64,000 bases of DNA from positions 843,501 through 907,500 of the forward strand of contig NC_058499.1 of the NCBI RefSeq assembly GCF_020382885.2. The letters run 5' to 3'. Below the pieces are notes generated by a model, which worked only from the letters and a program-made list of their open reading frames with translations, ran no database searches and was not told the DNA's origin. Position 1 is the stretch's first letter, and every line of letters begins with the position of its first letter. This DNA comes from Scatophagus argus (taxonomy: Eukaryota; Chordata; Actinopteri; Scatophagidae). Below, piece after piece: positions 1,807 through 62,200 of the stretch. A program made the position numbers and the translations under genes.

Positions 1807-4800
1807 CTAGCAGATGACTCCTCCCCTTGGAGATTCCACCATGTCCGGTTGGCTGGAAAACGGCCTGGGACTCAAAAACCTCACACCTGCCTCACCCGCT
1901 CCCGGCCCATCGTCCTTCTCCGTCCTGGCACGCATCCTGCCCGATGCCGACAGCAGCCGGACATCAGAGTGTGCGTTGGCCACCGTGTGCCGCCGCACGC
2001 CGCCAGACTTCTCCAGGTACGCCTCGCCCTCCTGCTCCACCAGTGGGGCCAGAGACGACGAGTCGGACGAGTTGTGATGCTGAGTGACGGTGATTTCCGG
2101 CTGGGACTGGTCGCCTAGCAACGAGCCTGACGTGCGCAGATGGCGGGATTCTGGATGAGGAGACAGGAAATCGACACCATCTCAGACAACTTTTACGGAC
2201 TACACTGCAGCAGCTTTTTGTGAAGCTACCACTAAATCTGCAGATGTACGTGTAGGTGTCTACACCTCCTGATGGCTGCGCTGCATGTCCTGCACCATCT
2301 GGAGCATCGGCACACAAGGTGCAATACACCCCTGACCAGTGAGGGCAGTGTTGGGTCATCTGTGTGACGTGACAATGAGTCAAGGACAAATAAAACTTCC
2401 TTTTTCTGCCATGATCTCAGAATGAACAAAATAGATTCGCCCTCCAGTGTGGCCACGTTTATTGTTTACACCGTGCAAATCCAGAAGTTCTAAATGGTCT
2501 GAGTTCTCCAATGTGCCCTCTGGTGGAGAACTCCAGTAATGAAAAGAACAAATCAAACGAGTATCTGTCCAGACTGTGACATAATGTCATCCTACACAAC
2601 AGCACTTTAAAGGAGCAGTTCAAAAACATTGAGCTCACACGTCATGTTTCTCATCACTTCGTGTTCACTTTGACTTTTTATATTTGCCGGTTCTAATGAA
2701 GGAAATAAAACGTGTGTTCCTGCTGCTTCTCCTGAGCTCCATAGGATTAACTCTTCAGTGAAATATTCATATATTAATATTACATAACAGTGCAGTATTG
2801 TTGAGTCGGCTGAGTGGCCTCCTGCAGGAAAAGCTCACTGCTGGACTGGCTCAAGTCACAGCAGGGATTAGGACTATAATCTAATCAGGCTTTGCCAGCC
2901 GTGGGGACTTCACGAGAGGTTTAGAGTTGGTTTGTGAACCCCGGCTGGAGGAATTACACATTCCCTCCATGGAGCAGAGCTGCTGCGTTCACTGACTGAG
3001 CTCTGCAACGTTTACTTTGTAGTTCTAGTAGCATCTGTTAGCTGCACAGCTAAAAGTCAACAGTACAGAAGTGAGGAAAGAAGACAAAAACTCTCACTGA
3101 ACCCAAACAAACGAAAGTTTTTCCTCATTAAATCATTTAAATCATGTTCAGTTTGTTAGAAAGTCTGGACTGTGACAGCAGCACAAGGTTTTAAACAAAA
3201 ATAGAAAAGGTGATAAAGACCTGGTTTTAGGCAGTTTCAGTATTTCCTCTGATTATATTTTGACTGGTGAAGGCTGCTGAATCTTTTAAAGGAGCATTTA
3301 AAGGGAATCTACCGTGCGAATGAATATGATTTGTTTCATTTTCAAAACTTTTCCCGACACAGATGTGGACAAACCTCACACCTGATGAGTCGATTGACAG
3401 AAAACTAATCGGCAGCTGATTTGATCATCGTTCATTTTTGGAAAAAGGTCATTATTTTGGGGTTTTTCATATGGTTTTAGTCAGAATTCCTTTATTTATC
3501 CCTGGAGGGAAATTCTTGATGATTCTCCATGTTTACACTGTCACCGCTTTCACTAACAGCTGAGTGGGAGTTTACATTTTATACGCAGACCGAGTCACCA
3601 TGTGGAGCCACGACCTCCGTTTGACTTTAGTTTGGCTTAATTAAACTCGCACTACTGTGGCTTCCCTTCAGTCGTATATAATACTATGACACTGCATGTG
3701 ATACTTTTGCCTTAGAGTACTTTAATTCTTACGAGATCCTACTGACATACACCTTCAGAAGTATGAAGTCAGTAAAACGTGAATGCTTCCTCCATCACTG
3801 ACCTAACAGGAGCTGGTTTCTGTTTTGCAGAACGTTGCTGAGGTACGGAGACACGACGACCTCCACCAGACGCTCCAACCGGTAGTACTCCACACTGGGA
3901 CCTCCAGACTCGTGGATTCCCTGAGACGCAGACGGAGAGACAGCAGATGTACACAGAGCTGTTTGCTGCTACAGACAGTAAGAGCTGAGGAAAAGTAAGG
4001 TGAAAAAAATGTGCCCGATCAGATGTGAACTGGTGAAGCTGGTGTTCAGGGTTCGCCTGTGGAGAATCGGTGAACACAAGTTAACGACATCCTGGTGAGT
4101 GTGAGCAAGCAAAACAAGCCACCACACTAACATCCCACTTAACAAACTGATTAATTAATTGCTCAAATCTGGAAGTGAAATGACAACATTGGGCGGGCTG
4201 GAACAAACTTTTGTTGGAAGACAAAACAAATTTAAAACGCAAACTATGTGTTTCAAACATCCCTCACAGCCTCCTGTTTGACCTTCTGTACTTGCTGTAG
4301 TTGATAGATGAACTGACTGCTCCTGGTTCATGTTCTCGGTTTCTCAGCTCACTGTTACAACTGAGGGAAGTGACGGCTGAAACTGAGACGGCACATAACC
4401 GAAATGCGTGTTCACCTGCAGCACCAGCAGCATCTGTGTGACAGCTGGAGGGATGGAGGCTGCAGTTCCCAAAGTTTCCTCCAGGTGGAGCTTCAGTAGC
4501 ACCAGATCTCTGAAGGCCAGCAGAGCCATCTGCCTCACCGTCAGCTCCTGACCCTGAACAAACACACACAGACAGTCAGGCACCTCAGGAGTCCAGAGCT
4601 CAGGATGTTAATCCACTGACCTCTGCTCGAATGATCCAAGACGATTTAAGGATTTGAATCAGCAAATTTAGTTCCTTCTTTAACCTGAGTAATGGGTCAT
4701 GAGTTCAGGACAGAGACTTTCTGATGCGTTTTTCAAATGCACAAGTGAAGTCATGTAGTTTCATCACACTGAATAGACATCAAACATGGATAAACAGCAC

Positions 4801-19786: not shown

Positions 19787-22334
19787 TCACATGGCTCCCT
19801 GCAGCAGCTGGACAGCAGCCTCCTTGTTGTGCCTCCGGGCCTCCTGCAGAGGAGAGCTCCCCCATCTGGTGGGAAGACAGAACTACATCACACACTGTCT
19901 CACACACTGTGCCCCACACCGTCACACACACTGTCCCACACACCATCACACACACTGTCTCACACACTGTGCCCCACACCGTCCCACACACCATCACACA
20001 CCGTCCCACACACTGTCCCACACACTGTCACACACCGTCCCACACACTCTCCCACACACCGTCACACACAGTCCCACACACTGTCACACACACCGTCACA
20101 CACACAGTCCCACACACTGTCACACACACTGTCCCACACACCGTCACACACACTGTCCCCCACACTGTCCCCCACTCTCCCCCACACCGTCCCACACACT
20201 GTCCCCCACACCGTCACACACACTGTCCCACACTGTTCAAAGTAACAGAAAATGCATCACCTAAATGAACAGGATGGAGAAACCTGAGGAGGTGTGACTA
20301 CAAGCCCACAGTAGTACTGTCATGTAGTACCACAGTATTGCAGGCTTCAGCAGGTACAGTCTCACCTGTCCTTCAGGGTGGCGTTCGCGCCTGCGTTCTC
20401 CAACAGGAAGCGGATCACCTCTGTGTGGCCTTCGGCAGCTGCCACGTGCAGCGCCGACCTGCCGTCATAGTCGACAGCGTTCACATCCACTCCAGACAGA
20501 AAGTACCTGCAGAGCACCACAGAAGAAGACAAACAGCTCTCAGACAGGACGAGAAGCAGCGTCGCAGCTCAGGTTATCGGTCCCTGAACAGCACCGCCGT
20601 TTCGCTGTGAATGTATGACAGTGTGAAACTGTGTTGGGATGTTAAAATGACCTCCTCAGGGCCAGGACGTCTCCTTTGAAGGCTGCCAGCAGGACATTCA
20701 TGATCTGGTATCCCTGCAGAGGGGAAGAGGCTTTGTAAAGCTCAGATAAACTGGTCTGGGATCAGATCAGAGAAGGACAACTAACCTCAGCTTCAGCCTT
20801 CCACTGTCTGTAGGCCAGAATCTGCCTGAACGGAGTCCTGATGTCAAAACTGTGCAGCTGAAATGTTGATATGAGCTCCTGCGAACACAAACTGATGTCA
20901 CTCAGTCATACATCGCATGTCTAAATGTACTGCTGCCTGTCTGAAGACACAGCTGAGACCTGGCAGAAGTGGACGGCCCTCCAGGGGTTTCCACAGGCGT
21001 CCAACTCAGGAGAAAACGCCATCAGACCCAAAACACCAGGGACCACCGCCAGCAGGGGGCCGCGGCTGCTCGACATGGCCGGGACGGACGTCTGCAACCA
21101 GAACCGGTTTCGGATCCATTTACATGATTTGACTCAGACTGAGAGGATGTGAGGAAAAGAAAGTTTTCTTTGCTCACAGACAGCAAAGTCAATCAGAAAG
21201 TCAAACTTAAAATCATTATTATCGTTATCATTTAATGACATGACTCTGCTCTGCTCATCCTCAGCTCCAATAACCACTGAGGGACGGAGACTGGACCTTG
21301 TAGTGGAAGGTTGTGGAGTAATCTTTCATCCCCGCCACCTGCATCATGGACAGCAGGCTCCGCGTTGCCGCCGGCGACAGCACCTGGTCACCTGACAGTG
21401 GACAGAGGCCCCCATTGGCTAACGAAGCAGCCATAGCAGCTCCTGATTCACAGGTGAGCTCTGTTGATGCGCACTGTCAGACAGCAGACACACTGACAGT
21501 AAGTGATCCACAGGGAGTGTGTGTGTGTGTGAGTGTGTGTGTGAGTGTCTTTGTGTGTGCTGACAGGTGTTGTACCTGCAGCATCAGATCCACAGCAGCA
21601 TTAATGTCAGTCTTCTCTGGAAAACACTGGCAGACAGAAGTCAGTTAGAAACACGCTGAGACGCACACACACACACACGTGATCTTTGATGTGTGGAGGA
21701 TGTTCACCTTTTTCTCCTGCAGGTAGAAGGTCAGAGCGTGGAGTCGGACGCTGGCCCTCCTGCTGCTCTCATAACTGAACATCAACACAGCAACAACAAA
21801 ACGCACTTCAGCACAGTCTCAGACAGCGGGTCACTTCCTGTCTCAAACAGCGAGTGATGTTGAGGACCGTTGAGACATTCTGCAGCCGCGTTCGTGTCAA
21901 CAGAAGACAAACGTGATGTTTTCCTAACTCTAACTGAGCCAAACATGCCAGTGCAGTGTGTGTGTGTGTGTGTGTGCGCGTGTGTTTCCAGTACAAATCA
22001 ACAGATTTCATAGGAAACACAGACAAACAGCAATCAGTTTAACTTTCACTGTTTTAACACAAATACATAAATAAATGCATACTTTCATGTTTGAAACAGC
22101 TTCAGTAACGGCTGCTCGCTGTACTTTTTACCAGACAGGAGGCACTTTGTTGGGGACTATTTTGAGTGGCGGATTAATTTGCATGTGGTGCACCAGCGTA
22201 TGTTGTGGGACTGAGTCACAACAAAGTACAACTTGTCTTGGTATGTAACCAGACAGCCTGTCAGCACCTGGTGCACTTCAGGTTGGCGTACTCCTTGTTG
22301 CAGAGCCTCCGGATGACATTCAGCACCTACAGGG

Positions 22335-22390
<56 letters not shown>

Positions 22391-25300
22391 CAGTTCGTCT
22401 CTGGGAGGACATTTACAGGTTCTACCTTCTGTGGATGTCACTCACTGAGTCAAACTTGTCCTCTTCCTCTGCACTCAGCCTCCCCGCCAGCTGGAGACAC
22501 ACAACACACAGCATTAGTGGATGGACGGATGGACAGATGGACAGATGGACACATGGACGGATGGATGGATGGGTTACCTGCAGTAAAGATGCAGTGATGA
22601 TGGCTCCTGTCTCAGTGAGCGGGCTGTGAGGAATTCCTGCACACAGAAATCAAGTCTTACTGTTACTCTGCTGTAGGGTCAGAGGTCGTCGGCCGGAGGT
22701 CAGCTGATGAGCTAACGAGGTAGTTCAGCTCGTCTCAATTCAGTGAAAGAGAGAAGCTTGAGCTCAGAAGGTGAACGGTTGGATTTTTCAGTTTAGTAAG
22801 TGGCTGTTGGTGCCTCGAGAGGTACAAAGTGGTATTACAGACAGGACGGGCCTGGGCTAGCTGGTTAGCATGCTAACCTCAGCAGATACAGTGTTGTTTT
22901 CCAGTAAAATGACACCAGGACCAGGACTGATTTCTGATCACAGCAGAAGAAAAACAGACTCAGACTCAAGACGGGGGGCGACTGTTCCTGGACCTGTTTT
23001 AGTGAGTGTGAACGGAGAGTCGTATCTAGAGTACCCCTCCACGCCAACGTATCTGTGAACGAGGTCAGAGCCCAGCAGGTCCACCGCCACGCCGTACACC
23101 AGTGGCCATGACACCTCGGCCAGAGCCAGAGAGCCGGCCCAGTCGCCCAGAGACAATCTGAAACAGACGGACAGACAGGCAGACGGACACAGAGGAGACG
23201 AATCACATTTACTGTAAATCCACCGTTCTCACACTGCTGGACACTGAAATAAGCCTTTTACTATGGAGAAAATATTTTGCATGATTAAGAGACTCATAAG
23301 CACCCACTGTGTGGCTGTTATGATGACGCATGTAGCACATGACGTAGTTACAAAATGTTCAGGGTTCAGTGAATCTGGACATCACATGAAAACTCATTTC
23401 TGCACTATAAATTTTTAAATTTTCTTAAAAAATTTGAACACATTGTAAATACCTGTACTTTGAGATTTTAGTTTTTGTTTATCCTATTTTTATACTCTTC
23501 ACTTTTCTCCTTTCTTGGTCGGGAATACTGCATGTGCAATGTCTGTAAGAATAAGAATTTCCCTTCAGGGATAAAGAAAGGAATTCTGATTCTGATAACC
23601 AGCGGCAGGCGGTCAACAGAGGGCGCCATCCTCCCTCCCAGCACAAAGACCAGTCACACAGACCTTCAGTGAGTAAGACCTCAAAAATTACTGAGGAAAG
23701 ATGAAAGTGACATATTTTGTCATTGGAGGGAACTCACTCCAACAAAATTCATGCTCTGCATTTAACCCACCCAAGTGACGTGCACACACACACAGCAAAC
23801 CCGGGGCAGTGGGCGACCACGTGCAGCGCCCGGGGAGCAGTGGGGGTTAGGTACCTTGCTCAAGGGTACCTCAGCCATGGACACCGGGACGGGGAATCGA
23901 ACCAGCGATCCACCGCTGATCCACGACTGCCCAGTGTATGTACTGGACAACATACACATTTTTTAATGAGCAACTTAAATGTTATGTGTAGTGAGTAAAA
24001 TGTATAGTAATAAAAATGCATAATAAAATAACAGTGTGTTGTTTAAAGTTACCCCCCTGCCCGCCCCCGCAGAGGGGACAGATTCTGGATCAGGACATAC
24101 CTCTGTCCATCCACAGTGCAGATTGAGACGCCCCACTTGGTGCCGTCCACACTCTCCTTTTCCTTCTCCTGATTCCACAAATGCACAACAGTACAAACAT
24201 CATTTGGGTTCAGTGCTGATGAGCTTTTATTCCCTGGCAGCAACAAAATGATCCTTCAGTTTAATGTACTTGAAATAAATGAATGCGTTGGGGAAAATGT
24301 CATAGAAATTTGCTTCTTTGCTTCCTTCTATTTTTCTCTCAAAATCCCTCAGTCCAGCAGTCTAAGTCTCGGGCTCTTGCATTGGAGCTCACCTGTACAG
24401 ACGACAGCTGACGGCACCTTGAAAACAACTTCTGAGTTTCTTCCGTGAAGGTGGAAAAATCTGGGATGACAAATCGTCCCTGCAGAGCCTTCAGGATCAG
24501 AGAGACGAATCCTGTGATGCATCTACAGCAGCAGAAACAAGACCAGAAACACAATGAGAAACAGGACGACAACCACTGACAACAACACGGCTGCATCCGT
24601 CCATAACGGGCAGAACCAGATTACAGGAACACAATAATAAGAACAGAATACAATAAACCAAAAGACAACAACATCAGAACCAGAAACTGGTGTGAATGTC
24701 AGATTTCAGCTGGGAAAAAATCGGCAAATCATCAGCAAATCAGCAGAGGTGGACTTAAATGAAGAGTGTGAAGAGGTGAACCCAAACAGAAAGGAAGGAA
24801 GGACCTGTGGAAGGCGTTTCTGTCCACTGCTCCCTCAGCGTCCTGCAGTTTCCTCAGGTGGAAGAAACACTCTCGGAGCCGAGGGTCCGACCTTTGCAGC
24901 CCAGAGCTCCAGATGGCCTGACGGGGAAAACAATCGCACCCACAGAGTTCCTTCAACTCCGCAACAGTCACAAACACACAAAGAACACACCAGAGACTCG
25001 TACGAACGACATTTTGGTGCACTTTTGATGTTTTGATGTTGTGTCCAAAAAAATCAGCAGGATAAGCAACAACAAATAAAATGCCTATTTTAGATGTTTT
25101 AATTATTGTATTGTGCTGTATGTATTTATATTATTACTTTTATTAAGATGAACATGATTATTGCTTTGTCCACGGGCGCCCCCTAGTGACTGGGCTCCCT
25201 TGTGGGCAGCCCGGGTCCTTTGTAGGAATCACTTCCCATAATGCAACTTTATAGAGGCCTTCATTAAACCTGCTTCACGTCTTGCAAACATCTTCTGATG

Positions 25301-28300
25301 TCATCACGAGGGCTAATTGATGGATTTTATTGACTTGTTGTCACAAAGCCGTGACTGACGTGTGAGTGTGTTTGTGTGTGTGTTTTCTGAGTGGGGTGAC
25401 CTCAAAGAACTGGCTGACGTTAACTCTTCCGTCTGAAGCGAAGCTGTCAAACAGCACATCAGCAGCCCTGAAGCAGCAGAGGTTCAGTGTTAGCTCAGTG
25501 CGGGTGGCGGGTTCAGCTGACAGTGGACAGCAGTGAGGACACTTACGCCCTGCGTTTGGACGGACTCTGCTGGGGAGGGAACCACAGCTGGGCGGGTGGG
25601 GGTCCTCGGTCCTCTGGCTGGACCACGGCCTGAGGAAGAGGAGGCTTCAGGCAGCCGTTACTGGCTGACACTGGGACCAGTGCACATGAAATCAGAAAAA
25701 AATGTTTCTTTATTATTTCAGTCTTCAACACGTGGCTGCTCAGAACAAACTGTTTGCTTGGAGCTTCCTCAAGATAATCGACCTGCAGAGGCAGAGAGTT
25801 CAAGAGAAAAGGGTCAGTCTGTGGTCTCGCAGACCACATGACTCCCCTCTTCACCGCAGTGTGCAGTACGGCTCATAAGCCCCTCCCCCTCCATGTTAGC
25901 AGATGGGACATGACTCAAACTGAAATCTCAAAAGTACATGTCGAATATTTTTTCCCCAAAGATGGTTTCTGTCATTTTATGTCACTCATATCACATTTTC
26001 AGTTTGGTTTTAATGAGTTATTTGATGCTACAAAGAGGGGCTGAAAAGTCATGACTGACAGCTGAGTGCTGCTCCTGATTGGCTCAGACGGGTGTGTGGG
26101 CGGGACCTCGATACTGTGGCTCCACCTCCACACTGCTCACTTTTTTGTGTCAGATGAAAACATGGGAACACTTTGTGTGTTTGGACTTCACTGCACAACA
26201 AACAGCCAGAAAGACAGGAGGACAATGAAGATGTGCTGGACAGGACGAAGTGCAGGTCCCGAAGCTCCAGTCATACCTGCAGGTCCAGGGCTGACGAGGC
26301 TGATGGGCTTCTGGACTGCAGTCTGGGTCTGGCTCTGGATCAGGCTCCTGGGAGCTGGACGGGGTGCTGTATCCTTTCAGACAACATAAAATCCCAAGGT
26401 ACCCTTAATCTGCCATACACACCTGGATTGTTAAAGTGCTGCAGTGGTGGAGGAAGTACTCAGATCCTTTACTACAGCAAAAGTACTAATACCACACTAT
26501 AAAAAGACCCCGTTACGAGTAAAAGTGCTGTATTGAAAATGTTACATAAGTTTAAGTGCATAAGTATAAGCAGGAAAATGCACTTAAAGGATTCAAAGTG
26601 AAAGTACTCCATGTAGTAAAGGAAAATGGAAAAATGCAAGTATCCCAAATTTGTATATAAGTACATAACTTGAGCACTTGGTGACCCTGCACCCCTCAGT
26701 GTTTCAGACTCCTTTCAGGTCTTTGTAAAGAAAGTCAAAGGTTTCTGTTGAGGAGCTGACTGCGTCGGGGAGGAGCAGACGAGTTTGTCTGAGCGCGACA
26801 CGTTGAGGCGGGTCTACCTGGTGTTCAGAGCTCCTCTGCTGGCCCTCGTCTGTCATCCCTCCATCATCTGCCAGGGAGGAGAAAAGAAGACAAACTCCTT
26901 CAGAAACTCTGGATGTTAAAAACCCAAACGGAGAACACATTACATGTACTGAGTGGAGGCGGGTGGTGGTGGCGGTGTGACGCCTCAGCAGCACACCACC
27001 TGATGACTGGACACCATCAGGCCACTGCATTGTCCCAATGTAACATTAAAACAATGAGACGTAGAGAAACCACAGTAACAGCACAGGAGTCCATTCATGT
27101 GCTGCATATCAGCGCTTATCCTGTGCAGGGTGGCAGCTGGACAGGTGGTCAGGTCATCACACACGTAGAGACACACATCCACTCATGTTCACATACACAC
27201 CTACGGGCAGTTTAGAGTCACCAGTTAACCCAACCTGCACGGAGCCACACAGAGTTAACTGATTCATTGCTGAAGCGCAGCAGCGTCTCTGCAGGCCACT
27301 CAGCGGTCTGACTGAACTGGTCTGAACTGTGGACTCCAGACAAACCTTCTGCTTTTATCACAAAGTTTTCAGAGTAGCTTTGAGACATCACGATGCCCTG
27401 AACTGAAACAGGAATCTGCTGCTGTTTAAAGCAGCGTGGGGTTTCTTATGTTGTTGTTCAGGTGCTGCTCAGACGTGTTGCTGTGTCTGAAGCCATCTGA
27501 ACAGCGTTTTGTTCCTCATGTACAACACAAGCCCTTCGTCTGCTTGTAAAGTGGACTTTCGTCAACCTAAAAGCATGAAGACAGAAGTCCTCTCAGACGT
27601 TGTTGTGCATTTAAGTCATTTTGTACCACAGTGACTGAGCAGTAAATCCTCCTCCCTGAAGGTTATGGCGCTCAGTCCAGAGAGACGTTGGACGAGCACG
27701 CTTTGTGCTGCGGATGGATGACTGAAAAGTCCAAACAGAAAAGAGACAAAATTCTGCTCAATGAAGATGTTCCATTTGGTGAACATGTTAGCTTTTCTGT
27801 CTGTTTGCTGACATGAAGAATGTTTCCTAAACTTAACTCCTCTTTGTTCACTTTCGCAGTCAGCTTGTCTAATTACAGCAGACCAAAGCTGGGAGCAGAC
27901 TGAGCTGTGGTACATGAAATATAAATACAGCCGAGCATCCGGGCAGACCAGCAGTTTGTGTGCTGGGTTTGTCAGGGCGGATCGCAGCCTCAGCCTCTCG
28001 CTGGGACAAATAAAGTTAGAAAAATAGATTCAGAGGCGGAGCCAGTTAGCAGCTTGATTTAGACAGACTCCGCCCACCGAAGGATCCTTCACAGACCACT
28101 AATCACAGGGTGTTACACACACACACACACAAACTCACACAAAAACACACACACACAGACTCACACACACACACAGACTCACACACACACACAAACAGAC
28201 ACACACAGACTCACACTCACACACACAAACAGACACACACAGACTCACAGACACTCACACACACAAACAAACAGACACACACACACACAGACTCACACTC

Positions 28301-47907: not shown

Positions 47908-50900
47908 TCATGGTAACGGCAAAGGCACCAGCACGTCCACATAACTGATGGGGAACAGTCCTGATTGGCCGCCCAGCGTGCCCTCGTACCAGTTGGCGTC
48001 GATCTGATTGGTGAGGATGATGATGTCGCCCTCATTGAAGTCCAGCTCACCCTCGTGGTTCGGGTGGAAGGAGTACATCGCCCGGCAACAGGGCTGATCC
48101 AGAACCAGCTTACTGTCAGCTGGGCGAGGGACACCGACAGAGACAGGGAAGGTTGTTATTATTAGTTGATTTTTAATAACTGCAAGTGTATGTTTGTTTT
48201 TTTTTCCATTTATCTGTATGTGGTGTATGTACTGTATATAGACTCTATTATTATACAAAATCACAATTTTTCTGCTTATTGAACTTTTTGAATGGAAATG
48301 AATTGATAGCAAAAGGGCGGGAAAGCACAAGAAAATATAAATAAAATAAGACTTTTCTCTTGTAAAACCAGAAAATACTATTTGAAACCATTTGAGATGA
48401 AGTAGAAATGAAACCTTTGGGTTCGCTGTCCAGTTCAAAACATTATTAATGTGAAAGTGAAGCAGTATTTAAACCTGAGCAAGCTGCAGCTGTGATAGAC
48501 GGCTGGTGAAAAAATCCAATGCTGCCGTTGTATTCACTTCTCATTCTGATCTTTGTGGACCTGAAGCGTCGCTCTGGTTTGTTACTGGCAGCCGTCAGCC
48601 TGTTTTCACACAGAAAATCCAAAACTTCATGACATTCAAACCAGACTCTGCAGCCACGCTAGCAGTTGTTCTTAGCATTAGTTAAAAGGACAAAAAACAA
48701 AGTACAACTGATGGGGCATCAGTGTTGGTTTATGACCTGGAGACACTCCCCTGAGCCTTAGCTGCACTTTGTGTTATTCATAACTGGCAAATGTTAGCAT
48801 GTAACATGTTAAACTAATATGGTGAACAATGACTGCTCATGCTGATATGTTAGCATTGTCCTTGTTCACCGTCTTAGTTTAGCCTGTCGTAACTGGTCAA
48901 TGTTGCTATAGCAACAATGGCTGAATAATGTTACAAACGAAGTGTCTTGTGCCGTGGCAAATAAAAAACGCATCCAACTCTGTTTGTAACAGATTTGATG
49001 TCACTCCACGTCCGCAGTCACAACTGGAATGCAGCATAAGTTAGCATGCTGAGGTTAGCATTTAGCTCATCTTTAAACCACTGTGACTGTGATGACTTGT
49101 TTTTACTCTCAAAATGTTCACTCACATAACATGAGTGGCCCTCCTTCCATTTGAATCTCATTTGTGGACTTGTGATTTTAACATTTTTGTTGTGGGTATT
49201 TGAGGTGATGCAGAGATGTGACAGGTGTTGAACCTGGGCTCACCTTGCCTGCAGGTTACCATGGAGACCCAGCAGGATGCAGTGGGCATTGCGGTGAAAG
49301 TCCAGCAGCGCAGCCACAAGAGCTGCCAGACGACTGAGCTGATCGGCCTGCAGGAGCAAACACGATGGCAGCCATCAGTGGACGTGCTTGTCAGGTATGT
49401 GTGGGAAATAATCAGTTGACTTCATATATTAATCAGGATTAACACCATCGCATTTACATCTGTTCAATTCCAGCATTCCAGAAGATTCTACTCATTTTTA
49501 TCAAAGTCAGTTTGTGTCCATCACAAACAACGAGACGCCGTAAATCAGACTCAGATGAAGAGGAAACACTTTTAGCTCACATCGTTCTGCAGCAGGATGA
49601 ACATGCTCCTCTCTGCCACCTCTTTGAACGTGATGAACTTGTCCCAGGCCTGTTGGACCTCCTCCGCTGGGACTTTCCCTCTACGTCTCCTCTTGTAGTC
49701 AAAGTCCAGTCGGCGACCATTCAGCTTCTTCAGCTGGTACTGTGGAGCCAATCAGAACAAAGATCAGAAATGCAGACACAGCTTCTGGACATACACACAA
49801 AATGCTTTTTTCAGATCTGATCATTTTCTATTCAAATCATGTTGTGGGTCCAGCAGTTAATGTTGGACAAAATGTGAACGTGCAAAGATTCCTCACTCTG
49901 ATCTCCTTCAGCTCTGTGTTGTGGAGGTCCTGCAGGGGGTCGATGAAGGTCTGTTTGACGGTGACATCCAGAATGTCCCGGGCCTGGGCCACCTGCTGCA
50001 GAGCTTCACCCACACCAGACAAAGCACCACCTGAAGCCCCAGACGACCAGTCAGAGGACCAACCAGACGACCAATGAGAGGACCAAGTGATGGACGAGAG
50101 CAGAACAAAAAAAAAAAGACACAGAAAGAGGAAAAGCAGCAAGTGTAGACAGATAGATAGATCGATAGATATTTTATTGATCCCAAGGGAAGTTCAACAA
50201 GCATGCAACCATTTCAGTGTTTTGTTTAAGTTTGCACATTTCTGTCAGCACATTTCTGAAGACTGAATTTCTCTCAAACGCCAGCTGCTTATTTTCAGTC
50301 TAAAATAAATGTAGTCCAGTAACAATCTGAAATGCTGTCACAGCTTTGCTTGTATTTGCACAAACAGGCCCTGACTAAAAACTTTACGTATACTTAAAAA
50401 AAGAAAAGGTAAAAAGTTAGTCCCTTTATCACTGTTTGTTACATTTCATGTTTAACATCATGGAAACACCACATGTAACTGACATCGTACCAAATTCAGA
50501 AGCCGCTCCGAGCTCCTGTCCGTAGCGCACCATGCATTCTCCCAGCATGCCTTCTGTCTGCGGGTAACCCACCGACTTCCCCTGTCCTCGAATCCTGGAC
50601 ATGGTGTTGAGCATGTTCAGTTTAGCTCTGTCTGCTGTGAAAAGACATTCAGCCGTTTGATGCACGCGGTCTTCCGGTGTTTCATTTTTCCATAAAGATA
50701 AAAGTGCACTGAAGAGACTTCACGTTGCGTTCCTGTTCAGGGACTTTCTCTCAGTACCTGGATTGGGTTGGAGGAACTCTGTAGTTTTGGACAGCAGCTC
50801 GACCAGCAGAGAGTGGATCACTGCAACGCTCTGACAGACAGACAGACAGACAGGAAGTCAGCTCAAACGTGTTCCTCATTTCAAAGCAGACTGAAATAAA

Positions 50901-56229: not shown

Positions 56230-59200
56230 TCAGGGTGGTGGTAGGACTGTAATCCCGTCCACGTCCAGCTCCACTGAGTGAACGCTGAAGTCTCCCAGAC
56301 CCTGAAAGAATCATCATCACCATGGTAACTAACCAATCAACCGTCACCACAGTGACGAAACAACAGCTCAGTTCCAGCATACGAGTTGACTTAACGCAAG
56401 CTTTTCCATCAGACACTCACATCTCACACTGAAGTTGTTTTATTATTTCAGATATTCATACTGCTGGACTTCTTAACTGGATGTGTAAGTTTAAGTGAAG
56501 CCTTCAGGCTTTGGATGATAATTCTTTCCATTATGTTCGTGCCTGTTTGACTTAATTCAAACAGAAACGATGTGACGATGTTTGTTGTTTTGTGGTGTCG
56601 TCTGGTTTCACCTCTGTGAGCCTCTAACGCAGCTGTTTGACACCTGTGTCACAGGTGACACTGATGTAAAGGTGATGATGATCTGTGTGCGTGTGCTTTA
56701 GGGACCAGGATCCTCACCGGCGTCCTGTTGAGGACCTGCAGCACCTCCCGCTGCTGTCGAGGCTCCCGGGTCAGCAGGTAGAGGAAGCCGCCCCCTCCGG
56801 CCCCGGCCAGGCTCTGGCCCAGGACCAGCGGCCTCAGGGCCTCCATCATGGCTCTCACTGAGGCCGGTTCACAGCTGGGAGCCATCAGCTTCTTCTGCTG
56901 CCACGAGCGCTCCAGACACACACCCAACCTGCTCAGAGAACCTGCAGGAAGATCACCTGTTTAGGCTTCTGGGAAATGGAGGATGTGAGTAACTGAAACT
57001 GGGAGTCAGTTTGAGGTGTACAGAGTTGAATCTGGTTGAAGTACTTTCTTTTACATTAATGTGGGAGTCAGAATCATCTAATGAGATCAAATTAACACAA
57101 CATTTTCAGTGCATGACTTTTACCCAACAGAGTAACAGGGTATTTCTTCAGTGGGGTATTAGTACTTTTACTGCAGGGACACCAAGGTGTTTCTGGGCCA
57201 CTGCCGTCTGTGGTGAACGGCCTCACCGTCTGAACAGGCTCTGGCACAGTCCTCAGAGTTGGCCACCAGCTGCTGGGCGTTCTGGACCATCGGGGGCAGA
57301 CGGCTATACCAGCTACGGACCACATCCTGCAAAAAACCAAAAAAACCAGCAACATGATCCTCCTCCTCCTCAGAAGCCGGACTAACTGTCCCACACTGTC
57401 ACACTGTGCTGCTTTGAAGTCAAACAAATCAGCGTACTTTAGCCATTTTGTGTCAGCTGGGTGTTTTAATTGTATTTGACATTTCGGTGTGGAGCATTTC
57501 AGTCAACTCCTGCTGTGTGTTCAACGTGTTTCAGTGTGCAGACTGGAAGTGGGACATCATCCTTATGACATTTCTTACAGAACGGTTTTCTTCTGATTCT
57601 TCCGTGATCGATTGTAAAATAAAAGACTTAAACTGCTGAAGAGACTTGTGGACAGACGGACCTGCAGCAGGTTGCGAGCCAGACGTGTTTTGCCGGTGTA
57701 GACCAGCAGGAGGTGCTGCTGCAGAGAAACCAGAAAGTCCTCTGGAGGACTGAGACGTTCCACCTCAACCCGCAGGGGCAGGGACGCTCTGGAACGACCC
57801 ACCTTGACTCCGCCCACCAGACCCCCCACCTGGTCCTGCCAGCCTCCACCTGAGGAGAAGAAGGAGGAGTCCAATCAGAACATCTTAAAGAAATGAGAAG
57901 GCAGCATCTCTGAAGTAACGGACAACCTGTGGTGAGAAGCTGTTCCAGGTAGAGGACGCCGTGAATGAGTGAGTCTGTGTCGTAGCTTCGACCAGTACAC
58001 CTGTAGACTGCAGCCAGCAGCGCCCCCGCCAGGATACTGCTGGTACCTGCGGGGCAAGAACTGATTAACCTCTGACCTCTAACCTCTGAGTTTCATAAAA
58101 CTGGAACATTTCTTTTACTTCCTGTGCTCGTCTGTCACGGCTTTAAAGGATTAATAAAGTTTTATCTTGTATATCATGCTGCTGGTCTCTCACCCAGTCC
58201 AGATCCAGTGGGCAGTGCTGACCAGCTGTGGAGCTCCACCCCTCCTCCCCACTGCTGCATCAGCTGATCCTGCAGAGGACGCCGGGAGGAGAGGGACACC
58301 AGATCGCTGCACACACACACGGCCTTCAGCAGGGCTCCTGCAGCACGCAAAACCACACACATAAACACACACACCCAGTCGTCCCATTAAACGAAAACGC
58401 AGGGTCGGCCTCCTACCAGGAGCGTGAGGCTGACAGTAGTCCCTCAGGTCATCCAGGCTGACACACGTTGTCTCCGTGGAAACCCCGCTGTCCCGCCCTC
58501 CGGTGTAGCTGACCAGCAGGAGGCGGGGCTCTCTGATGCGACGGGCCCTGGCACCAATAGGACGTTTCCCGTCAACCTTCACGGCGATGTTGGTCACGGA
58601 GCCGCCGTGCTCAAAGGCGATGGGCGGCGTGTCGCTCCAGCCGCCTGAAACACAAAGAGGCAGCTGTTCACTGTGAACGTGTTCGACAGTCAGCTCGGAG
58701 TCAGCTGTAAGACAACTTAAAGCTTAGAGAACTGACATGTGGTAAGAAAAGCACACTTTTCTTTGTGTACAAAAGCACCAGACTGTGACAAGCCCCAAAG
58801 TCTGTGAACCCGTGTTTTAACTGCACTGACGGCTGCGTCTGGTCCCCCTCGGGTTCGGACAGACCTCCATCCGTCCTGGTTCACGTTGGCCAGTGAAAAC
58901 CTGTTGCCTAATGTGTCTGACACAAAACAACTGAGATGGGTCCACATGGGTTTTTGAAACACAAAAAATCTCCAAAACATATTTTTGATGGAAGGAAATC
59001 AAATTAATTGTCTGTACTGTAAACTTCATTCATTCGTATCAAGAACCCCTGAACCAAGAGATTTTGTCCCCATCTGATCAGAATGTTGCTTTGGGTGATT
59101 TACTACAGAAAGTGTATGAAACCAACCAAAACAGTCACACATTGAGTCGCTGTGTAAAATTCATGTTCCCCCTTTCAGCTGTGGACCCCCTGGACCTCCT

Positions 59201-62200
59201 CTGAGAACCACTGCTGTAAGCGCTGAAATGAAATATATACAAGTACCTCAAAACTGTGCTAAAGCTCCTGAGTACATGTACTTAGTTACCTTCCACTGCT
59301 GATTTGCTCACCTGCCAGGTCCAGTCTGGCTGGACACTCCACTTCCTGCCACTCCTCAATGGGCGGGATCTCACCCTGGCTAATGGAGATGAACCTCTGT
59401 GATGACATCACAGCTCGTCGTAGGAGCACCTGGCCGGCGCCCTCGTAGTGCCGGGCGGCCCGCACTAGTAGGTCCGGCCTGCAGGGGGCAGTCACAGAAA
59501 TGAACAGATTATCATCCAGCAGAGAACATGAAAATACAGACAGACAGCGAAGCTCACCTGCCCAGCCAACGGTCTCTCTGCGCGGCCAGGGCCTTGACTC
59601 CGCCCCTCACGTTACCCTCCTCCAATAGGCGGTAGGCGGAGCTCCAGGCCTCGTTAGCAGCTGGTCCACTCCTCAGACCTCCCCTCCCCCCCGCCATGCA
59701 CACCAACACGTCAGCAATGCATGAGAGGCAGCGAGCGGCCACGCCCAACTCTGCACCTGACTCTGCCCCCTGCTCGCCACTTCCTGCTGCCACTGGCAAA
59801 AACATAAGACACAGGATGCTGAATAAAGAAACAGGAAATTAGGTGAAGGGTGACTAAGATTTTCATTTTAACCACCACGACCGTCCTTGATTATTTATTT
59901 GATGTGTACTTTGAGTTATTTTTTGGCTCATGTCCCATCTGCTGACATGGAGGGGGAGGCACTTATGAGCTGTACTGCAGCCAGCCACCAGGGGGCCATC
60001 AAGAGGTTTTGGCTTCACTTTTGGAAGCTCTCATGTGGTCCATCTTTATATACAGTCAGTGGTTGTGACTCACTGCTGTCGAGCGTCTCTAGCAGCGCCC
60101 CCTGCTGGCCTCCGAGCACGGCCGCCCTGAAGCAAGGCAGCAGGCAGACGTCTGTGCGACTCCTCAGGACATCGGCCACTCTCCTTCTCCCTGCCAGGAA
60201 CAGTAACTCCTCCCTCCACCGCAGCTCTGCCTCCTGGTGGGTCAGTGCCATCACCTCCTTCAGAGAGAGCCTCCACGCTTCCCTCCACCTCTGCAGACAG
60301 CCACCTCCACCCAGCAGCCAGCCAACACCTTCCTGCAAACCCACAGCGCCTCCCCTTGGGTGGAGGACTGGGAAGAGACGAGCCTCCAGGAGGGAGCGCT
60401 GTTCTCCTCTGACCCACAACTCCTCTGGCCTGAGAGAGAGGTGAGGTCTGGTGTAAACTTTGCCTTTTCAGGCAATTAAAGCGCAGTTTAAAATGTACAT
60501 TTTTAAACTTTATAGAATTACATTTGAAAAACACCAAATAAATATTCAAAAATCATTCATGTTTAACAGTCAAAGCTCAGCTGATGAGTCCTACTGGATT
60601 CCTGTTCTGCCGTAGACGAGGCTCCATCTGTGGTTGAGGAAGGAGGCGCTGCTGTCATCAGAGGAGACCTGAGGAGGAGGAGGATTTGAGGCGATAATCT
60701 TCTGTGATATGAGCTGAGCTGCGGGTGATTTTGATGTCTTGAAGCTAAAACATTCAGTGTTTTAAACTTCTTGATTTGTGGGTTTTGTCTCATTTTATTT
60801 ATTCAGTTTCCTCTTTAATCTCCAGCTGAATTTTGTAATTTCTGTTTTAAAAAAGTTAAAGCCTCTAAAAACAGTCCCTTAAAAAAGGAGGTCAGGTCAG
60901 AGAAGTCAGTTACTCGCTTGTTTCAAGGCTTTCAACAGCAGCTCAGTCTTCCTCAGCAGATGAAGATCATGAGAGGAGTTTGAAAGCTCTGGAAAAATCT
61001 TTTCAGTGACTCTTGAGTTCAATATTTTGTGTTTGTTCACCTCCAGGTGGTCCTGCGCTCCCATCACAGTGAAGACGTTCAGCTTCAGCCCCCCCAGCTC
61101 AATGCGATGTCCCTGGATGATGATGTCATTGGTCAGCTCCAGCTGTCTGACACTCTGTGATGTCATCAGCTCAAGACCTGACAGTAAACAACCCGATGGG
61201 ACCTCCAGAGGACCCTGGTGGAAAGGTCAAAGTTCACATCGGCAGGAGGAAGTATTCACAAGTAAAAATACTCCAGTTCCTTTAAAGCTGCGCTCACATA
61301 CTGAACAACAACAGTAAGCTCCTGACCTGCAGGTGGCAGTGTTGCACCACCACTCCGGCTGCCAGGGCAACGTCTCCCTCCAGAATGCTGTTAATAACCC
61401 GAGCCCCTTCGTTAACCCCGCCGTCCCTCTGAAGGGAAACAGGAAGTGGAGTTAGTGAAACCAAAGAGTCCTCCGCCGTGGTCACATCACAGCTTATAAT
61501 CCGCCAGAGCAAACAAATAGTTCCTGCTAATTAACCCTTCTGTGACCACGGCCCTGCGCATTTAACTCAGAATCTTTTGGTCATATGATGCTGGGAAACA
61601 GGAAGAGGAAGTGTCACCTGGATGTGAGACAAAGTGTTTCTGTTTGTCCAATCACAGCTCAGACGCTCCACGTGCTGCCTTCCAGACAGAGTCAGGTAGT
61701 CATAGCAACCGGCGGGGACGTAGGCTGACAGAGGAAAGAGAGCAAAGCACAGGTGAGGCAGTTAGCAGTTAGTTTTATATCATAATCTGAATCTGCCAAG
61801 TAACAAGTAATTCAACTTATCAAACAAAGACAGTGGAGTAAATATTTCCCTCTGAAATGCAGTGAGAGAATTACTCGCGTAAAAGTACCAGTAAAAATGT
61901 AGCTGGAGTTTAAATTCAGGAATTTCAATCAGTTCTTTTTTGGAACAACAGCTGGAAGTTTTCTCCCCAGTTTATTTAATAAACTTCAGAGATTTTGTTG
62001 TCCTTTAAAAGTTCTTGCACATCATGAAGTCCTAATGACAGCAGTGTGGGTCAAAAGATTTCTGATGAAGGTCTGAGGCAATAAATTGTGTCACAGTAAC
62101 AGCGATGATTTGGTTCATTCTTTCTTAAAAGTGAAGAAAATTATGAAATGCAGTTGAGACAATCATTTGTGGTTGGCACAGTGAAGAAAAGATGAACCTC

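Follow-up and report, generated by a model that had tools for sequence, protein, structure and literature searches.

Glutaminases are active in the form of dimers, tetramers and filaments. Pseudoenzymes that derive from homo-oligomeric enzymes have lost the catalytic residues, while the fold and the assembly surfaces are partly retained. Glutaminase activity is described as coupled to tetramer and filament assembly (PMC10912226). In zebrafish, the gene glsl is described as an Ensembl prediction that does not group with the remaining glutaminases (PMC6197330), and in coho salmon glsl and sh3gl3a are listed in one region (PMC8102513). Here we describe a gene from a stretch of 64,000 nt of the fish Scatophagus argus (NCBI RefSeq assembly GCF_020382885.2, contig NC_058499.1, positions 843,501 to 907,500 of the forward strand; from here: the window). 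It is probably the fish gene glsl, as judged from one shared neighbour and from its distinctness as a paralogue, and it is very probably a constrained, catalytically dead pseudoenzyme of the glutaminase family. No mention of a glutaminase-family pseudoenzyme, or of a loss of catalytic residues in glsl, was found in the available passages of the open-licence literature.

Like zebrafish glsl as described in PMC6197330, the gene is a glutaminase paralogue distinct from the others. The domain order of its protein, an EF-hand-like N-terminal domain followed by the glutaminase domain and ankyrin repeats, is identical to that of human GLS and GLS2, and most of its exon lengths equal those of the canonical GLS/GLS2 homologues of its own genome. 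Unlike human GLS and GLS2, all tested active-site residues are replaced, the lid is shortened and R317 and K320 are changed in the alignment. With fold and assembly surfaces partly retained and the catalytic residues gone, the protein resembles the pseudoenzymes of homo-oligomeric origin.

Gene model, family membership and paralogues

The gene was modelled by a spliced alignment of the human GLS protein to the genomic sequence on the minus strand, followed by refinement. Residues are numbered after human GLS, with a reference sequence that matches chain 8gwr_B at 669 of 669 residues. The resulting model has 16 exons, all on the minus strand, from 25467 to 19787, with 501 codons plus the stop codon in a continuous frame without internal stop. 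All 16 acceptors are AG and all 15 donors GT; three of the donors, at 22994, 21297 and 20960, are weak beyond the GT according to a simple score. The G+C content at third codon positions (GC3) of the coding sequence is 0.689, compared to an intron G+C of 0.461. An earlier note on this DNA, made from the sequence alone, had proposed 21 exons and 641 codons. Homology does not support so many, although two candidate 5′ exons fit in phase, and the interval 20366–24522 given in that note turned out to be only a part of the gene.

The profile matches mark the window protein as a clear member of the Glutaminase family. It matches PF04960 with 202.1 bits against a cut-off of 27, spanning profile positions 12–286 of 286, EF-hand_14 with 58 bits, and five Pfam ankyrin models, among them Ank_4 with 61.9 bits. 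Identity in the catalytic domain is 122/300 (~41%) to either human GLS or GLS2.

The genome (570.7 Mb in 48 contigs, the window being C7:843501-907500) was searched with PF04960 and the draft protein. Among the best-scoring candidates there were three other glutaminase loci, on contigs C24, C11 and C8, hence four in total, and no second copy of the window gene. Modelled in the same way, the proteins of C24, C11 and C8 share 86.5%, 84.4% and 72.6% of their aligned residues with human GLS, and the first two are of the GLS type.

The active site and the retained framework

Columns were called invariant if identical in five canonical proteins, the two human and the three fish ones. Nine active-site positions (249, 285, 286, 289, 335, 381, 388, 414 and 466) belong to this set, and C24, C11 and C8 keep all nine residues. 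The window protein keeps none, whereas 97 of the 201 invariant columns of its catalytic domain are retained (hypergeometric P = 0.002, columns treated as independent). The ligand and proton-relay residues N335, E381, N388, Y414, Y466 and the lid tyrosine Y249 are all lost (0/6). The catalytic residues of the window protein are lost beyond background divergence, and because the three canonical paralogues are complete at these positions, the loss is not an effect of assembly or alignment method.

The replacements are spread over several exons. The 164-nt exon at 22994..23157 encodes the former Ser-x-x-Lys helix, with Q285A, S286E (codon 23115–23117) and K289W (codon 23106–23108), together with the activation loop; the stretch around S286 and K289 aligns without gaps. 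N335E (codon 22611–22613) lies in the exon at 22578..22636, which reads IPHSPLTETGAII there. The exon at 21708..21774 carries E381S (codon 21762–21764) and N388L (codon 21741–21743), besides F378Y, Q379E and D386V. Y414M (codon 21582–21584) is found in the exon at 21576..21626, Y466K (codon 21324–21326) in the 177-nt exon at 21297..21473, and V484S (codon 21065–21067) together with K481M in the 132-nt exon at 20960..21091, in the context PAMSSSRG with S482 retained. V484 is outside the nine positions and is Ile in C8. In the lid exon at 24101..24168, which has 68 nt instead of the 80 nt in the three paralogues, the segment of Tyr249 is four residues shorter and no Tyr is encoded. The earlier note had named the eight replacements at positions 286, 289, 335, 381, 388, 414, 466 and 484, and the alignment bears out every one of them, with the codons of the lost dyad at exactly the positions given there (23106–23117).

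For Q285, N388, K481 and V484 we presume active-site roles. Those of Y249, F318, E381, R317 and K320 are described in PMC10912226, while PMC10770349 assigns proton transfer to K289, Y414 and Y466 and also covers the role of N335. Exchange of the catalytic Ser219 of GLS2, which corresponds to position S286, for Ala disrupted activity (PMC8130709).

Neither the Ser-x-x-Lys dyad nor the Tyr, Asn and Glu ligands were restored by alignment to GLS and GLS2. The S-x-x-K motif occurs nowhere in the corrected window protein. A tblastn search of the window with the five canonical proteins as queries (E up to 0.05) detected no alternative exon with this motif, as its matches were confined to modelled exons or their read-through. 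Judged by these residues, the window protein cannot carry out the known Ser-Lys chemistry, and we infer that it would lack any activity. W289, perhaps together with an E286-K466 salt bridge instead of S286 and Y466, would close the pocket.

The activation-loop segment had been described in the earlier note as unlike GLS. It is indeed divergent when set beside human GLS2, and of the 18 invariant columns between 308 and 334 it retains 6, yet the claim was too strong. The exon is complete, its 164 bases equal the length found in the three paralogues, and it reads YVGVEGYSRYDSPFTLTKTGIPHSPLTETGAII.

Outside the active site, roughly every second framework residue is kept, and so, it appears, is the glutaminase fold. 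Invariant columns are retained in 21/40 cases in the N-terminal domain, 97/201 in the catalytic domain and 35/57 in the ankyrin part; among the 104 columns lost from the catalytic domain, 32 are conservative changes and 5 are gaps. We examined twelve segments of our own choice and computed P for four of them, uncorrected. The best-kept ones were 400–406 (4/4), 420–441 (15/19, P = 0.004) and 487–510 (13/18), with a well-kept core in the 177-nt exon (ELTCESGAAMAASLANGGLCP). The worst-kept ones were the lid at 245–256 (0/8) and the filament element at 371–384 (1/10, P = 0.012).

Seven filament contacts are known from PMC10912226 and PMC10770349 (F355, F373, N375, F378, Q379, D412 and Q416), and three of them are retained, no more than background. 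These are F355, in a 45-nt exon at 22446..22490 that has 33 nt in the three paralogues and thus four additional residues, and D412 and Q416, both in the exon of Y414M. F373L and N375C are located in the exon at 22268..22326, and the remaining changes are F378Y, which is conservative, and Q379E. At the phosphate / dimer-dimer site, R387, Y394 and K398 are kept (exon 21708..21774), while R317 and K320 are changed in the alignment; by eye, a shift of one residue would align an Arg at R317. Because neither the filament nor the phosphate / dimer-dimer residues are retained significantly above background, they count against a simple filament role.

Constraint and possible roles

Selection was analysed with a codon model of the four fish genes of this genome (492 codons), using a fixed topology that joined the window gene with C8. 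The ratio of non-synonymous to synonymous rates (omega) was 0.117 on the window-gene branch, compared to 0.018–0.032 on the four other branches. A value of 1 was rejected for this branch (2 delta lnL 34.3), and so was 0.5 (14.6); 0.3 fitted worse by 5.6, and for 0.05, where the branch length reached its bound, the difference was 2.6. An estimate of dN/dS had been proposed in the earlier note, and the one obtained here rejects neutrality, as a rough branch average; its value is rough because the synonymous distances are far beyond saturation. The window protein and C24 differ at 295 of 492 residues without any stop, and with about 0.05 stops expected per non-synonymous change under neutrality, most of this divergence must have been filtered. 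Averaged over its branch, and with synonymous sites saturated, the window gene has thus been maintained by purifying selection.

An open, constrained gene with an erased active site, a retained framework and retained ankyrin repeats points to a selected non-catalytic role, as the earlier note had suggested, and such a role is well supported by the sequence features described above. Several observations weigh against it. Omega averages over the whole branch, part of which may date from when the protein was still an active enzyme, in addition to the saturation of the synonymous sites. The chance of remaining free of stops is still 0.34 after 2% neutral divergence and 0.07 after 5%, and a very recent loss of function (1–2% neutral divergence) would often leave no stop. 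The comparison covered the glutaminases of the same genome and of humans, and the loss of the active site may be confined to this species or its lineage.

How a dead glutaminase could act is a matter of graded plausibility. The possibility to which we lean, tentatively, is that Glsl regulates active Gls as a partner. Using the dimer or dimer-dimer surfaces, Glsl would associate with a subunit that is an active glutaminase, and in a mixed Glsl/Gls oligomer the lack of one working site and lid would lower or tune activity. The retention of R387, Y394 and K398 at the dimer-dimer / phosphate site supports this mechanism. In zebrafish larvae, the swim bladder was found to contain glsl as well as glsb (PMC6197330), so that a partner would be present in the same organ. 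Against a partnership of this kind, the dimer-dimer segment 386–406 keeps 11/17 columns, which is not above background (P = 0.12), D386 is Val, and R317 and K320 are changed. There is also no sign of mitochondrial targeting, because the 5′ end of the gene model may be incomplete.

A role as an ankyrin scaffold, in which the glutaminase domain would be no more than a platform for structure or dimerisation and the protein-binding ankyrin surface would be the selected part, seems unlikely to us. This idea, also raised in the earlier note, agrees with the intact repeats and with the ankyrin part having the highest share of kept invariant columns among the three domains, but in this share it does not differ significantly from the catalytic domain (P = 0.10). 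Compared to C24, the sole paralogue scanned with the five shared Pfam models, the window protein scores higher for Ank_4 (61.9 versus 49.7 bits), Ank (45.1 versus 42.5) and Ank_5 (38.4 versus 28.8), but lower for Ank_2 (45.7 versus 51.6) and Ank_3 (28.2 versus 31.8). Moreover, the good retention of the glutaminase core at 420–441 seemingly exceeds what a mere platform requires.

We regard it as quite unlikely that the pocket was neofunctionalised, such that a site formed by E286, W289, E335, S381, M414 and K466 would bind another small molecule or have another activity. Several of the replacements are bulky or charged, the lid is remodelled and the core segment 487–510 is among the well-kept ones, but no catalytic motif can be named, and the corrected protein is without S-x-x-K.

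Distinctly improbable, though compatible with the contacts listed above, would be that Glsl acts as a brake on glutaminase assembly, as a capping subunit of the Gls filament or tetramer. The 'socket' side of the filament contact is mostly kept (F355, D412 and Q416, with F378Y and F373L), whereas both 'knob' residues are lost (N375C, Q379E), as are the tyrosine of the lid and E381, which senses the substrate. With the socket side better kept than the knob side, a cap could dock and then block the next unit; it would act where glsl and glsb co-occur, for instance in the swim bladder.

That Glsl joins Gls filaments as a positive cofactor, which comes closest to the filament role proposed in the earlier note, we hold to be highly improbable. 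It is true that F355, D412 and Q416 are kept, that F378Y is conservative, and that Q416A disrupts filaments of GAC (PMC10770349), but F373L, N375C and Q379E and the poor state of the element 371–384 speak against such a function. In addition, filament assembly of GAC and GLS2 is described as coupled to substrate binding with the involvement of E381 and the lid (PMC10912226), and the window protein has neither E381 nor the tyrosine of the lid. Filament joining in the form stated in that note is not upheld.

Very little probability is likewise left for a recently dying gene, that is, a former enzyme under relaxed constraint and functionless today. The higher omega, the long branch (see below) and the three weak donors would fit such a decay, but the stop-free divergence from C24 and the GT-AG borders at every junction argue against it. 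An ordinary active glutaminase that was misaligned or misassembled has almost no probability, as the S286/K289 stretch is gapless, alignment of the paralogues posed no difficulty, four separate glutaminase loci emerged from the family search of the genome and nothing was found in its favour.

Exon structure, origin and significance

From the 130-nt exon on, the exon lengths of the window gene are 130, 68, 164, 59, 45, 59, 67, 51, 177, 132, 93, 62 and 141 nt, and those of C24, C11 and C8 are identical among each other with 130, 80, 164, 59, 33, 59, 67, 51, 177, 132, 93, 62, 77 and 64 nt. The window gene is thus an exon-for-exon paralogue with four residues fewer in the lid exon, four more in another exon and one intron lost, since its 141-nt ankyrin exon (20366..20506) is the fusion of two paralogue exons (77 + 64). 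Among the four glutaminase loci of the genome, only the window gene has this intron loss. The first exon with homology support (25401..25467) starts the EF-hand_14-like N-terminal domain, and its first base completes a codon, as in the paralogue exons. A further exon of this domain follows at 24805..24917, and then the 130-nt exon at 24393..24522, equal in length in the three paralogues. The 93-nt exon at 20786..20878 comprises the end of the glutaminase domain and the linker, the ankyrin region starts in the 62-nt exon at 20652..20713, and the last exon (19787..19865) holds the ankyrin end and the stop codon (LLQGAM*). Two tentative additional 5′ exons, a Pro/Gln-rich one at 25547..25664 and another at 26277..26373, are phase-compatible but without homology support.

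In an unrooted tree of six proteins, the window gene grouped with human GLS2 while C8 lay on the opposite side (support 90.2/88), and the window-gene branch measured 1.28 substitutions per site. Seven placements were compared by the approximately unbiased (AU) test. All four GLS-side placements were rejected (AU p 0.005 to 0.020), and those next to human GLS2 (0.918), C8 (0.151) and on the central branch (0.105) were retained. Since the branch is long and C8 does not fall clearly into either class, this placement of the origin is weak. A scan of genome contigs for a bacterial outgroup with an alignment of the three paralogues gave no relative, hence there is no rooted tree; a scan of viral contigs with the window pseudoenzyme gave no relative either.

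The C8 gene is located at about 7.237–7.257 Mb of contig C8 and has one GC donor. Its assignment as plain GLS2 appears doubtful, with 905 bits to human GLS versus 870 to GLS2. At 120 columns separating human GLS and GLS2, it is GLS-like in 47 and GLS2-like in 34, compared to 87 and 12 at 119 such columns for C24; C8 is a canonical glutaminase of mixed GLS/GLS2 character. The family search with PF04960 gave no further GLS2-like locus among the best-scoring candidates, whereas gls2a and gls2b are reported for zebrafish (PMC6197330).

An sh3gl3-like endophilin gene (47911–50719, minus strand, as the window gene) lies 22–25 kb from the window gene and is the one shared neighbour recognised from the coho salmon region. 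Its SH3 and BAR exons match the endophilin A family. Its BAR part is closest to SH3GL3 among PDB entries (106 bits versus 98 for SH3GL2), and its SH3 part is closest to endophilin A1 (101.8 versus 96.9 for SH3GL3). Of ten open frames of the window searched against Pfam, six had no match. Exons at 56652–61226 on the minus strand match GHMP_kinases_C and Fucose_pyrophosphorylase and fit what we would expect for fucokinase FCSK. The open frame at 4347–4607, minus strand, had no Pfam match at E 0.001; by its reading, it may encode a PROTOR/PRR5-type protein.

Glutaminase is pursued as a target for cancer drugs. A subunit from its own family in which nature has erased the active site would offer a ready means of uncoupling assembly from catalysis. 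If the pseudoenzyme reading is true, a fish lineage would have evolved a non-enzymatic glutaminase partner, and the swim bladder would be the obvious place to look for it; for gas gland cells of the eel, glutamine has been suggested as a fuel (PMC9197889). As glsl is listed among pathway genes in metabolic studies of fish (PMC11546858, PMC9368350), caution would be advisable there, and glsl should not be counted as a glutaminase.

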